The position numbers and the translations under genes are program-made. From a virus: a stretch of DNA of 25,135 nucleotides. Each line of letters starts with the position of its first letter. The stretch's first letter is position 1. Shown piece by piece: positions 9,984-15,479 of the stretch. The notes beneath the pieces are model-generated. The model ran no database searches. It saw only the letters and a program-made list of their open reading frames with translations, and was not told the DNA's origin. Where the stretch lies: IMG/VR virus record IMGVR_UViG_3300050132_000069, positions 1 to 25,135 of that record; one strand, 5' to 3'.

Positions 9984-10451
9984 ATGAATAAATGGATCTT
10001 TCTAATAGCCGTAACGCTTTCTCCAGTTGCCGGCGCAATCGATACGAGCAAATCATGCTCGATTGTTGAATGCGGCGTCGGAGAACAGGCGACCACTTAT
10101 ATGGACAAGGGTGAGTTTTATTTTGCATGCCCTACTAAGGAGCTGTCGGAATACGTAACCACTCTATGGGGTCTTATTTTGGTCTCTTACCAGATGACTG
10201 GAAAGCTTCCCAATATCTCTCCAAGCACTGGCGAGCCGGAATACAAGGGGCAGACCAAGCAAATGATCGACTCTCTTCGTTTAGATGCAGGGGTTGATAC
10301 CTACGACGAAGCGCAGGCGCTATGCTCAAAGGGAAAGAGTAAGCTCTCGGTTTCGATCATGAACAATCCAGAGGACGCAATGTCGATCTGGGTTGTAGGA
10401 GCCAATAAGAAACCGTTCTGGATGCCTAAGGCCTTCCTGCTGAAACGATAA
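9984..10451 (+). CDS. Secreted Cys-containing protein, possible moron (155 aa)
   Basis: Starts 3 bases after the membrane protein gene and ends just before a strong terminator, so the two form a small plus-strand operon. The N-terminus MNKWIFLIAVTLSPVAGAIDT is a clear signal peptide with cleavage expected after AGA (residue ~18). The mature part has four cysteines (25, 30, 49, 114), which fits two disulphides in the periplasm. The segment SEYVTTLWGLILVSYQMTG (~55-73) is moderately hydrophobic. No known domain was recognised. Partnership with the upstream membrane protein is inferred from position. Possible roles include changing the envelope of the lysogen or blocking superinfection; neither is shown by the sequence. 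Confidence 0.75.
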   Translation: MNKWIFLIAVTLSPVAGAIDTSKSCSIVECGVGEQATTYMDKGEFYFACPTKELSEYVTTLWGLILVSYQMTGKLPNISPSTGEPEYKGQTKQMIDSLRLDAGVDTYDEAQALCSKGKSKLSVSIMNNPEDAMSIWVVGANKKPFWMPKAFLLKR

Positions 10452-10500: not shown

Positions 10501-10530
10501 CAAAAAAAGAAAGGCGCCCATAGGTGCCTA
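10501..10530 (-). terminator. Intrinsic terminator of the antirepressor operon
   Basis: On the minus strand, AGGCACC-TATG-GGCGCCT is followed by TTCTTTTTTTG. The 7-bp stem has one A/C mismatch. It lies 24 bases after the stop of the helix-turn-helix gene and ends the five-gene minus-strand operon. Confidence 0.75.
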
Positions 10531-10829: not shown

Positions 10830-11071
10830 AATCCACCCCTGCGCGGCTGCGGCTGCTCAGGAGCGTAGACACTGACGAGAAATGAAGATACTCCCGCAAG
10901 CCAGACCGCGACCATGGCATCAGTTGCCGGATGGCCAAGCCCTTCCTCCCAAAGGCTGTAATAAAACGTCAGTCCTTGGATAATCAGGCTGAGTGGCGGA
11001 GTGCAGATTGAATGACCTGCCAGCACCCCGTCGTAATGGTATTTTTCCACTTCTTCAACCGATAAAGTCAT
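10826..11071 (-). CDS. Hypothetical protein in the antirepressor operon (81 aa)
   Basis: Overlaps both neighbours by 4 bases (ATGA), which supports it being a real translated gene. The sequence MTLSVEEVEKYHYDGVLAGHSICTPPLSLIIQGLTFYYSLWEEG is followed by a hydrophobic stretch (AMVAVWLAGVSSFLVSVY, ~52-69) that might be a single membrane helix, and a Pro/Arg/Gly-rich tail. No domain recognised. Being between two predicted regulators suggests an accessory role in the lysogeny switch or host takeover, but nothing in the sequence fixes this. Confidence 0.65.
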   Translation of the reverse strand: MTLSVEEVEKYHYDGVLAGHSICTPPLSLIIQGLTFYYSLWEEGLGHPATDAMVAVWLAGVSSFLVSVYAPEQPQPRRGGL

Positions 11072-11736
11072 GCTGCTTTACTCCCCGCGATCAAGTTTCC
11101 TGCCACAAGCACAAAGTGAAGCGCTGCGCCCTTGGCCTTTGCCGCTGCCTCGCGATGCGTGTCGCCTGCTTCCAGGCTTGCGTGAAGGGCGCGAGTAAAG
11201 ATCAGCTGAATATTGGTCAGCAACAGGCGCTGCTCAATTGTTAGCGTGCTCCGCTCACCACTGGCAATGCCCATTGCAGTATTTATCGCTTTGTTGGCGT
11301 TGATGTGGAAGATCCGCTCCGGCGTCGTGCTGCCGCACTCTTCGGCGCGCTGAGATAAAAGCTTAACCTCGGCGTGCAGCTCTCGATACAGAGGAAGATA
11401 CTGCTGATCAGTAACGGCAGTTTTCTCCCGCGCATCCCGGAATGCGCTAACTAGGTTGGATTTGAGATCCACGACCTTTTCGGTGTTTCTGGATAGTGAC
11501 AACAGAAAATATGACTGATCCTCATTCAGAAGAGCGTAACGCTCTGGTCTTCCGCCCTCCGACCCAGCTGAGGGTTTCGACATTTGAAATGCCAAAACCC
11601 CAAACCGTTGAAATCTGCTTTCGTAGCGATCTATCAGCGCTATCGAGCTTTTGTGCTTGTTGCCGAGCTGTTTGGCCAAATCGCGACTGTCTGCCCGAGC
11701 TTCGCCTTTTGACTGAATCAGAATGATATTGCTCAT
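11068..11736 (-). CDS. Rha family phage regulatory protein, second copy (222 aa)
   Basis: The N-terminal ~100 residues match the Rha pattern: ADSRDLAKQLGNKHKSSIALIDRY, then FQRFGVLAFQM, and GRPERYALLNEDQSYFLLSLSRNTEKVVDLKSNLVSAFRDAR, the last being the diagnostic 'G+P---YLL-E-Q---LL---RNT--V--FK--LV-AF' block. The C-terminal part (INTAMGIASGERSTLTIEQRLLLTNIQLIFTRALHASLEAG) is helical and unlike the first Rha protein in the operon. Rha-type proteins are phage regulators that often act as antirepressors or interfere with host growth in some strains. The ATG overlaps the TGA of the upstream antirepressor by 4 bases. Two different Rha proteins in a row suggest distinct repressor targets. Confidence 0.8.
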   Translation of the reverse strand: MSNIILIQSKGEARADSRDLAKQLGNKHKSSIALIDRYESRFQRFGVLAFQMSKPSAGSEGGRPERYALLNEDQSYFLLSLSRNTEKVVDLKSNLVSAFRDAREKTAVTDQQYLPLYRELHAEVKLLSQRAEECGSTTPERIFHINANKAINTAMGIASGERSTLTIEQRLLLTNIQLIFTRALHASLEAGDTHREAAAKAKGAALHFVLVAGNLIAGSKAA

Positions 11737-12662
11737 GCCGCATCCTCCTGAACGCTAAAACGAATACCCTTGCCTTGCGTTCTATCAGCCCAGAGGCGCA
11801 GCCCAGAAAATGCGTACTCGGCGCCTTCAAGGTGATGCCTCATCGCCAACACTTCGAGGCGGCAGGCCTCAAGGTTGTGACCTTGTTTTTCAAGCTCGGC
11901 GATGGCGCGTAGCGTCGGGGAAACGAATTCGCTCTCACCGAACAGCATGTCTGGCGTCAGCATCATGTTCCCGTCGCCCTGAAAGGCAGTCATACGCTTG
12001 CGTACGTCAGGCATGGACTCCGCGAGCCAGCGCGATGCAGGCCAGTTAACCTTTGAATCTGCCTGGACTTCCTTGTCGAGCCACTCACCTTCAAGTACGT
12101 AGGCGGCGATGAAGTTGCATGCCGCTTCCATCTGGTCCGCTGGAATGAGCGAGGTCTTTTGTACGTTGAAGCGAGAGCGCAACCTGCTTTTCATGGTGTG
12201 CGTGAAGCTGCGCTGCATGGCCGGAGCAATCCGATAACCCTTCTGCTCGATCACGCGATTAAGAACGACCTCGCCAGTGCTGCCGATTACAGATCCGACC
12301 AAGTCGCTGACGAGAACTTCCGGGGCGAGATTCAGGCGTGCGGCCATTTCGTTAAAGGCTGCGATGTAGCCTTCCTTGATTGCAGCGGCACTTTTCCCAG
12401 TGAAGCCCATGACCAGGAACATGAAGCCGTCTTTGGTCATACCCCATTGAGGCAAGCGACGGCCAGATCCGTCGATATATTCACTGAGCGTAAAATTGCG
12501 CTCAGTGAAATTAGCAGAACATTCCAACCCTTCGATCTTTCGCAGCACGTCCTTGTGAAGCTTCCCGAATGCCTCGGCGACATTCTGGGATGTAGTGAAT
12601 GCCTGTCCATCGCGCGCTTCCACAAATTTGCGCATGTCAACTACTGTGGTATTATTCGTCAT
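11733..12662 (-). CDS. Antirepressor with Rha N-terminal domain, in the P22 ant position (309 aa)
   Basis: Start chosen at ATG 12662 (MTNNTTVVDM), with AGGAA seven bases upstream; a longer reading from 12749 would run through a terminator and the Arc-like gene. Residues ~8-107 are a Rha domain: AFTTSQNVAEAFGKLHKDVLRKIEGLECS, then NFTLSEYIDGSGRRLPQWGMTKDGFMFLVMGFTGKSAA. Residues ~110-200 (RIAPAMQRSFTHTMKSRLRSRF, IPADQMEAACNFIAAYVL) resemble the C-terminal DNA- or protein-binding parts of phage antirepressors; the exact family was not checked. Its size and place after an Arc-like gene match P22 ant, which inactivates the main phage repressor. Translation start is covered by a predicted antisense RNA. 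Confidence 0.85.
   Translation of the reverse strand: MTNNTTVVDMRKFVEARDGQAFTTSQNVAEAFGKLHKDVLRKIEGLECSANFTERNFTLSEYIDGSGRRLPQWGMTKDGFMFLVMGFTGKSAAAIKEGYIAAFNEMAARLNLAPEVLVSDLVGSVIGSTGEVVLNRVIEQKGYRIAPAMQRSFTHTMKSRLRSRFNVQKTSLIPADQMEAACNFIAAYVLEGEWLDKEVQADSKVNWPASRWLAESMPDVRKRMTAFQGDGNMMLTPDMLFGESEFVSPTLRAIAELEKQGHNLEACRLEVLAMRHHLEGAEYAFSGLRLWADRTQGKGIRFSVQEDAA
12627..12655 (+). promoter_or_regulatory. Predicted promoter of a sar-like antisense RNA
   Basis: Plus strand: TATTAT at 12650-12655 (5/6 match to the -10 consensus) is preceded directly by TGG, giving an extended -10. A weak -35 (TTGCGC, 12628-12633) stands 16 bases upstream. Initiation would fall near 12662, at the antirepressor start codon, but in the opposite direction. 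Confidence 0.5.
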
Positions 12663-12728
12663 GACGTTTTTCCTGATAGATGACGTTGATTTCGAAGCCT
12701 CAAGCGTTGGTGCGCTTGGGGCTTTTTT
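12662..12728 (+). ncRNA. Candidate sar-like antisense RNA over the antirepressor start
   Basis: Predicted transcript of about 67 nt from the extended -10 promoter to a plus-strand terminator. It is complementary to the antirepressor ribosome binding site and start codon and to the spacer after the Arc-like gene. P22 sar RNA, about 68-69 nt, occupies the same position between arc and ant and blocks ant translation. Here position, orientation, length and terminator all agree, while primary sequence conservation was not tested. No other reason for a plus-strand terminator in this place is apparent, as no plus-strand gene ends there. Confidence 0.6.
12695..12728 (+). terminator. Plus-strand intrinsic terminator in the Arc-antirepressor spacer
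   Basis: Arms GCCTCAAGCG (12697-12706) and CGCTTGGGGC (12713-12722) form a 10-bp stem with one T-G wobble around a 6-nt loop, extendable by two A-T pairs. TTTTTT follows at 12723-12728. On the minus strand there is no U tract after the stem, so the terminator is directed to the plus strand, against the antirepressor operon. Confidence 0.85.
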
Positions 12729-12888
12729 ATGCCCGTTGATTTTGTGCATCTTTCAGCATTGCCTCCTCTAAAGCCTTCCCGATCAGCCAGTTTTGGCTGC
12801 GCTCTTCTTGCTGAGCCTTCCTCTCAAGCCATTCCTTAACGTCAGGCTTGGCGCGGAAAAGGATCTGAGCCATATCGCGTACTTTCAT
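12727..12888 (-). CDS. Arc-like ribbon-helix-helix repressor (53 aa)
   Basis: A short gene with an excellent ribosome binding site (AAGGAGG five bases before the ATG). The protein, MKVRDMAQILFRAKPDVKEWL followed by ERKAQQEERSQNWLIGKALEEAMLKD, has the Arc layout. A strand (~6-14) is followed by helix A (~16-29), a turn at ERS, and helix B (~31-47). It is exactly the length of P22 Arc (53 aa). P22 Arc is co-transcribed with ant and represses both ant and mnt promoters, and the same arrangement is found here: divergent from the Mnt-like gene, upstream of the antirepressor, with operator repeats in the shared promoter region. The stop codon lies at the end of the plus-strand terminator's U tract. 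Confidence 0.85.
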   Translation of the reverse strand: MKVRDMAQILFRAKPDVKEWLERKAQQEERSQNWLIGKALEEAMLKDAQNQRA

Positions 12889-12899
12889 ACTGCCTCCTT

Positions 12900-12969
12900 A
12901 TGCATCACCGTTGTTTACATCATCAAGATATAACGGTGATGCATTGCCGTCAATACCACCGTGATGCAT
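12900..12969. promoter_or_regulatory. Three operator half-sites in the divergent immunity promoter region
   Basis: ATGCATCACCGTT (12900-12912) and its exact inverse AACGGTGATGCAT (12932-12944) form a 13-bp perfect inverted repeat with 19 bases between. A third copy, ACCGTGATGCAT (12958-12969), differs from the second by one base and is in direct orientation to it, 25 bases away. These are the likely binding sites of the flanking Arc-like and/or Mnt-like ribbon-helix-helix proteins. The second site fills the spacer of the leftward promoter, the third overlaps the rightward one. Confidence 0.82.
12925..12953 (-). promoter_or_regulatory. Predicted leftward promoter for the Arc-antirepressor operon (P-ant like)
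   Basis: Minus strand TTGACG (12953-12948, 5/6 to consensus), 17-base spacer, TATCTT (12930-12925, 4/6). The middle operator lies inside the spacer, so a bound repressor would exclude RNA polymerase. Initiation is expected near 12918, about 30 bases before the Arc-like ATG. Confidence 0.65.
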
Positions 12970-13003: not shown

Positions 13004-13453
13004 ATGAGCCGCACCGACCCCCAATTCAACCTCCGCATACCGGAGACCCTTCGAGATAAGGTCGTTGCTGCTGCAAAGGAAAACGGCAGATCCTCCACGG
13101 CAGAAATACTCGCCAGGCTAGAGCTTAGTTTTCTGGGTGACGCCCCGTCTGACGACCTAATCCCAGCCAACAAGGCCAGGCAGATGTCGCAAATTGCCAG
13201 GCAAAGCATCCCGTCAACTGTAAAGAAGCGCATCAGTCAGTCGATCAGCGAGGCGATATCGCTCGGTCACGATAGCCTTGGCGTGAAATTTGAAGACCTT
13301 GGCTTAGAGTCGATGCCTGAGCAGGACATAAACGACCTGATCGAAGCTTTCAGCGAGATGCTGGAGGACGCGGGATACACGTTCGAGTGGGATGGAGTCG
13401 AGCAGTTGTGGATACACTTCTCGCCGTTTCCAGGACTCCCAGACCTGAACTGA
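13004..13453 (+). CDS. Mnt/Arc-like ribbon-helix-helix repressor with long C-terminal extension (149 aa)
   Basis: Divergent from the Arc-like gene. Residues 4-45, starting TDPQFNLRIPETLRDKVVAAA and then KENGRSSTAEILARLELSFL, closely follow P22 Mnt/Arc: the DPxFNxRxP strand that reads the operator, helix A, ENGRS turn, helix B. P22 Mnt represses ant and is needed to keep the prophage quiet. Mnt is about 83 residues, whereas this protein has an added acidic region (~70-149; ISQSISEAISLGHDSLGVKFEDL, DINDLIEAFSEMLEDAGYTFEWDGVEQLWIHF) of unknown role, maybe oligomerisation or ligand sensing. GGAA lies upstream of the ATG. The gene runs toward the late operon and should be expressed in the lysogen. 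Confidence 0.85.
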   Translation: MSRTDPQFNLRIPETLRDKVVAAAKENGRSSTAEILARLELSFLGDAPSDDLIPANKARQMSQIARQSIPSTVKKRISQSISEAISLGHDSLGVKFEDLGLESMPEQDINDLIEAFSEMLEDAGYTFEWDGVEQLWIHFSPFPGLPDLN

Positions 13454-14958: not shown

Positions 14959-15047
14959 GGGTAATTCCTCTGGTCATTGAGTCGTCAAAGAGCATGGCGT
15001 GTGGGGTGACGAATCCCGCGCCCTGCCGGGCTGCCATGCGAATGGGG

Positions 15048-15479
15048 TTAGGAGACTTTCAGGCGGCGCTGGGCCGTCCAGTGGAAATCCTGCTCTACAG
15101 TCTTGTCGCCAGCCTTGTCGCCAGCCTTTGCAAGCTGAAGCTGAACGGCGGTATAGCGAAAAGTTGAAGCGCCTCCGTTGGATTCCTGAATGGTTTCAGT
15201 GATCGTCGACGGAGGGCGGATAACCCCGCTGAAGTAATCTGCTTCCCACTGGGCCTGGTAATCATCGGCGGTTGAATCTTGGCGCTCGATACTGACGGTG
15301 CCTTTCCAGCTCTTAGGGAAAGGAGCCTCCTCGGTAATGCCATTCAGCTTTGTAACGCTGATATTCCCGAGAACGGGCTCGGAGGTGAACTTTGTAACTG
15401 CCGGAAGTCGAAGCGGGCCATTGGACGTGTTGATGTCTACCGACACGTCCCTGCCCATCGTAAAGCCGTTAATTGGCAT
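15048..15479 (-). CDS. Tail tube protein (143 aa)
   Basis: Directly downstream of the sheath gene. Its N-terminus (MPINGFTMGRDVSVDINTSNGP) and FSGVIRPPSTITETIQESNGG, with a beta-rich body (GNISVTKLNGITEE, WKGTVSIERQDSTADDYQAQWEADYF), fit the tube proteins of contractile tails, which stack as hexamers inside the sheath. Length is close to Mu/P2-type tubes (120-170 aa). The C-terminal part contains a short duplicated AGDK segment. GGAG lies 9 bases before the ATG, and a terminator lies between it and the sheath gene. Confidence 0.85.
   Translation of the reverse strand: MPINGFTMGRDVSVDINTSNGPLRLPAVTKFTSEPVLGNISVTKLNGITEEAPFPKSWKGTVSIERQDSTADDYQAQWEADYFSGVIRPPSTITETIQESNGGASTFRYTAVQLQLAKAGDKAGDKTVEQDFHWTAQRRLKVS
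15102..15125. repeat. Exact tandem duplication of a 12-mer within the tail tube gene
   Basis: CTTGTCGCCAGC occurs twice in direct succession (15102-15113, 15114-15125). In the tube protein it encodes AGDK twice in an exposed-looking stretch near the C-terminus. It keeps the frame and looks like a recent slippage event. Confidence 0.85.

Follow-up and report, generated by a model that had tools for sequence, protein, structure and literature searches.

The antisense RNA sar is a textbook regulator described in P22-like phages. It base-pairs with the mRNA of the antirepressor gene ant and interferes with the initiation of its translation (PMC12197685). The P22 record places the end of arc at 15022, sar at 15021-15090 and the beginning of ant at 15091. 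The c4 RNA of phages P1 and P7 is cut out of the transcript that also carries its target, rather than being transcribed from an opposing promoter. It resembles the candidate RNA considered here in being an antisense RNA directed against an antirepressor message near the ribosome-binding site, around which it blocks translation (PMC12197685). The mnt/arc/ant cassette of P22-like phages lies among virion genes and has been termed the 'ant moron' (PMC2629481). In literature searches that covered few subscription papers, none on sar outside P22-like phages was found.

The window analysed here is the whole 25,135-nt stretch of viral record IMGVR_UViG_3300050132_000069, for which a sar-like RNA had been proposed from the sequence. 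The observation of a promoter-like element and a terminator bounding a predicted RNA opposite the start of ant was confirmed. The favoured reading, with a probability of about 0.88, is a cis-encoded sar-type antisense RNA that silences ant by pairing with its ribosome-binding site and whose terminator forms its second hairpin.

Organization of the cassette

The target gene, ant, lies on the minus strand (11733-12662) with a Shine-Dalgarno sequence AGGAA at 12674-12670, and encodes a 309-aa protein with matches to Pfam Phage_pRha (4e-26) and to PHROG anti-repressor families. As a refinement of the earlier proposal, the antirepressor is of the Rha type and similar to P22 Ant in the middle domain only, where residues 161-198 alone match (E 4e-5), and its N-terminal domain resembles P22 Rha rather than P22 Ant. 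Immediately downstream, and sharing 4 nt with ant, is the gene for a second Rha-domain protein (11068-11736).

Upstream of ant on the same strand is an arc-like ribbon-helix-helix gene of 53 aa (12727-12888; PHROG Arc-like 6e-5; Pfam RHH_5 6e-4 and Arc 0.009, both below the curated cut-off), whose stop overlaps the end of the predicted RNA. Divergent from it, on the plus strand, is the gene for a 149-aa Mnt-like repressor of the Arc family (13004-13453; Pfam Arc 4.7e-14), with 47% identity to P22 Mnt over 36 aa. Between the two genes lies a likely operator (12900-12969) made up of the 13-nt inverted repeat ATGCATCACCGTT/AACGGTGATGCAT, which is perfect and overlaps the likely arc-ant promoter, and of a third, imperfect copy. 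The candidate for this promoter, TTGACG-17-TATCTT (12925-12953, minus strand), came from a generic scan in which such sites are about equally frequent in shuffled sequence.

This gene order is that of the P22 immunity-I region, with divergent Mnt-like and Arc-like ribbon-helix-helix repressors beside an antirepressor; the difference lies in the antirepressor itself, in which P22_AR domains were not found and Phage_pRha was. As in P22, the mnt/arc/ant neighbourhood is inserted among virion genes, here flanked by Baseplate_J, a weak tail-sheath match, a P22-like coat protein and a tail completion protein, and the cassette of Pseudomonas phage Medea1 is likewise situated among virion genes. Within the minus-strand tail gene cluster of the window there is also a plus-strand ORF at 9984-10451, with a signal-peptide-like start and no Pfam match, which is possibly a moron gene.

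The predicted RNA and its putative promoter

The extended -10 element of the putative promoter, TGGTATTAT, is located at 12647-12655 on the plus strand inside ant codons 3-6, with its TATTAT at 12650-12655. It is preceded, with a 16-bp spacer, by a weak -35-like TTGCGC (12628-12633), read from the sequence and poor in agreement with the consensus (3/6); the -35 region of Pseudomonas-type relatives retains TTTGCGC/CTGGCGC. The RNA is predicted to start at 12662/12663, at the ant ATG (12662-12660, minus strand). The original prediction had placed the extended -10 at this ATG; the element itself was recovered on the plus strand as proposed, but it is the RNA that begins at the ATG, the promoter lying within the gene. 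A generic promoter and terminator scan of the window listed neither this promoter, because of its poor -35, nor the terminator, probably because the long stem absorbs half of the T-run.

The predicted sar-type RNA comprises approximately 66 nt (12663-12728, plus strand) with a P22 sar-like fold and an architecture shared by 37 unique relatives, and it is matched at 12662-12733 by R1, a covariance model built from Pseudomonas-type loci only, the window itself being in the R1 training set. Hairpin I (12663-12687) has a 6-bp stem (12663-12668/12682-12687) and carries the anti-Shine-Dalgarno TTCCT of ant (12670-12674) in its apical part. It is followed by an intrinsic terminator (12694-12728) with a 14-bp stem free of mismatches (12694-12725), a loop at 12708-12711 and a T-run at 12723-12728 that overlaps the arc-like stop codon (12727-12729); a plus-strand terminator at this stop, ending a predicted transcript of about 67 nt, was thus found where it had been proposed. 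The RNA at 12662-12728 folds with -28.1 kcal/mol (z = -4.75), with none of 200 shuffled sequences folding equally well.

The RNA is complementary to the whole arc-ant leader together with the ribosome-binding site of ant. An RNA from the plus strand could also work chiefly by interfering with transcription, or in trans on other messages, given that opposing promoters converge on arc from either side and that small, stable RNAs are capable of acting in trans. This is improbable, as the RNA is fully complementary to the ant leader and has the anti-Shine-Dalgarno in the loop region of its hairpin, which favours blocking of the ribosome-binding site after the manner of P22 (PMC12197685).

Comparison with P22 sar and family membership

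The predicted RNA occupies the same place as P22 sar, antisense between the arc stop and the ant ATG and covering the ribosome-binding site of ant, and is close to it in size, as had been claimed (66 nt in the window, 70 nt in P22). Both consist of a 6-bp hairpin and a 14-bp terminator stem with a 4-nt loop, and both have an extended -10 at the matching place inside ant (TGCTATACT in P22). They differ in their target, which is a Rha-type antirepressor in the window, and in primary sequence, which is mostly unlike.

Searching the whole window with Rfam at the gathering threshold returned nothing, and the sar model RF00262 scores the window at 18.2 bits, over the terminator half only and below its cut-off of 43 bits. 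However, the best match of R1 in the P22 genome is P22 sar itself, at 23.5 bits, and at L071 R1 also detects a sar-like RNA next to an antirepressor of the P22_AR type. In the reverse direction, the best RF00262 hit falls at the R1 locus in five of 12 Pseudomonas genomes (G019, G092, G003, G094 and G013), at 44.8 bits and over the cut-off in G019 and at 24-30 bits, full length and at the same sites, in the others. Since the window is far below the RF00262 cut-off, which is the threshold of one model, membership was assigned on anatomy and reciprocal model links and not on the Rfam score, and on this sequence evidence the RNA appears to be a divergent member of the sar family. The window has the position at the arc-ant junction, a predicted two-hairpin RNA with its terminator and an extended -10 inside ant; the arc stop offset is -65 to -75 in most relatives and -81 in a few.

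Conservation and covariation among relatives

Relatives of the window antirepressor were collected from 80 viral and 38 genomic loci, and 116 loci, including P22 and Medea1, were analysed. The motif TGNTANNNT occurs at most 9 nt from the start-codon complement in 43 of these 116 loci, P22 among them. A sar-type terminator is present at 43 loci, 42 of which also have the extended -10, and the other 72 loci have neither; the Fisher p for this co-occurrence is only nominal, the loci being related. Two loci depart from the pattern: L016 has TGNTANNNT with the terminator region cut off by the contig end, and in L086 the terminator is accompanied by an extended -10 that has decayed. At L079, one of the sar-less loci, the Rha gene is preceded by a terminator-like hairpin of an unrelated kind. 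Among P22-like loci sar is almost always retained, and loss of the terminator stem in close relatives, which would have spoken against the proposal, was not seen.

The covariation of the hairpin that had been suggested as a check was found. Across 26 distinct terminator stems, variable cells of the two arms are paired in 92% of cases compared with 79% when arms are exchanged between loci (z 6.1), and in a MAFFT alignment 21 cells are changed on both sides compared with 8.4 in shuffled alignments, the sequences being related and the shuffle statistics therefore overstating their independence. Double changes occur in 5 of 11 pairs, and pairing falls to 29-65% in controls with slid partners. The stem sequences of hairpin I differ between groups and still pair in most relatives; the hairpin I segment has a mean z of -1.13 at loci with sar and -0.10 at sar-less loci, a modest difference. 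Within ant, codon identity given the same amino acid is 0.72 for codons 2-8 and 0.69 for codons 9-14, compared with 0.36-0.52 later in the gene, and synonymous conservation in codons 2-14 is not raised in sar-less loci. Its recurrence, with covariation, across dozens of relatives places the sar pattern far outside what chance would give.

The same data bear on the strand from which the hairpin acts. A structure in the minus-strand arc-ant mRNA, serving as an intercistronic attenuator, a processing site or a translation-coupling element with no antisense RNA at all, would fit a hairpin between two co-oriented genes, and the minus strand of 12662-12728 does fold, if worse than the plus strand (z = -2.65). 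Such a role is nevertheless very improbable: read on the sar strand, the wobble pairs are 39 G-U to one A-C, the latter arising from a locus that was mis-anchored in the arm analysis (L005) and being counted against the sar hypothesis; the sar strand folds better than the opposite one in 35 of 37 unique relatives; the T-run is on the plus side only, with 5.5 T after the stem on the sar strand and 1.6 on the other; and the TGNTANNNT promoter co-occurs on the plus strand.

No plus-strand gene in the window ends at the terminator (12694-12728), which bears out a further point of the original prediction; the only substantial plus-strand candidate upstream, the ORF at 9984-10451, stops 2.2 kb away and has its own weak terminator-like site (10512-10529). 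That the hairpin is a plain plus-strand terminator stopping antisense read-through from upstream, with no dedicated small RNA ending there, is very improbable. This ORF does lie on the plus strand, and similar terminator hairpins are common in Pseudomonas, but directly upstream the extended -10 and codons 2-14 of ant are frozen, the first hairpin is conserved, and the same arrangement in P22 is annotated as a defined RNA.

Distribution in Pseudomonas and modularity of the cassette

Across 199 sampled Pseudomonas genomes, R1 gave strong matches in 12, only hits of at least 45.9 bits being counted as sar genes. An antirepressor start was present at 11 of these, and in the twelfth (L293) the hairpins are present and no long ORF was recovered. 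Weaker hits of 33-41 bits were rejected as further sar genes, those inspected (L294-L311) being without an extended -10 and the group representing mostly one recurrent gene terminator; hairpins of such shape are common in Pseudomonas. The recurrent gene end (...YPKNYPLKSVDDVFNG stop; L294, L296, L298-L301 and similar) has a symmetric terminator that mimics R1 at these scores.

In the loci L282-L292, of which representatives were checked, the antirepressor that follows the arc-sar module has an N-terminal domain of the Rha, Bro-N or P22_AR_N type. At all loci with sar for which upstream sequence was available, a small and nearly always Arc-like gene ends at the terminator, usually at a distance of 65-75 nt from the start of ant. 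Of ten upstream proteins sampled, eight exceed the cut-off of Pfam Arc, and that of L026 has no Arc match. In loci L034-L037 and L042 sar is kept and the arc position is taken by an unrelated 80-aa protein with a weak KilAC match that is not of the ribbon-helix-helix type. At sar-less loci only spurious or unrelated ORFs lie upstream of ant. The RNA therefore seems to be the invariant core of a lysis/lysogeny cassette of wide distribution, in which the arc gene and the antirepressor domain are exchangeable.

An open reading frame through the sar target

In the window the ant frame continues without a stop codon across the sar target (12663-12749) into the 3' end of arc, where there is an in-frame ATG at 12749, whereas in P22 it is not open through the leader. 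The frame is open at 34 of 37 unique loci with sar (expected 0.37), and most non-P22 loci have an in-frame ATG or GTG within the end of arc, often behind a GAGGAG-like Shine-Dalgarno sequence. The annotators of Medea1 used an upstream start within arc for ant. As proof of a longer Ant the open frame was rejected and kept as a lead only: substitutions across the open leader showed no codon-position signature, and after clustering of relatives the excess is marginal at best, with p of 0.02-0.13 at stricter cut-offs and no significance at looser ones.

The open frame could reflect a longer Ant, or nothing. A precedent is the P22 sas RNA of sieB/esc, by which a phage controls alternative translation through an antisense transcript (PMC5415839), and the P22 record annotates in-frame sieB and esc starts. 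Although sas concerns a different gene, the likeness bears on the open frame; by this analogy the RNA might cover the inner start only and select between putative long and short forms of Ant, as sas does for SieB and Esc, a reading that is unlikely.

Proposed mechanism and significance

The antisense interpretation of the locus is well supported at the level of sequence by its anatomy, covariation, strand specificity, promoter conservation, cassette context and the model links to P22 sar. By analogy with P22, the RNA would be made, would pair with the ant mRNA and would lower the level of Ant. In a lysogen, the promoter inside the 5' end of ant would yield an RNA of approximately 66 nt, of which hairpin I would present the anti-Shine-Dalgarno, the RNA then pairing with the ant mRNA and blocking translation initiation as in P22, while hairpin II would serve as its terminator. 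The Arc-like and Mnt-like repressors would limit arc-ant transcription and the RNA would silence the residual arc-ant message, such that the antirepressor would appear only in a pulse.

Judging from these sequences, a mechanism best known from P22-like phages appears to be present in dozens of Pseudomonas and other prophages. The cassette provides a sequence signature with which antirepressors under antisense control can be found, and it allows testing of why the RNA is retained while its protein partners are replaced. If the reading of a longer Ant were true, the RNA would be more than a mere off-switch.
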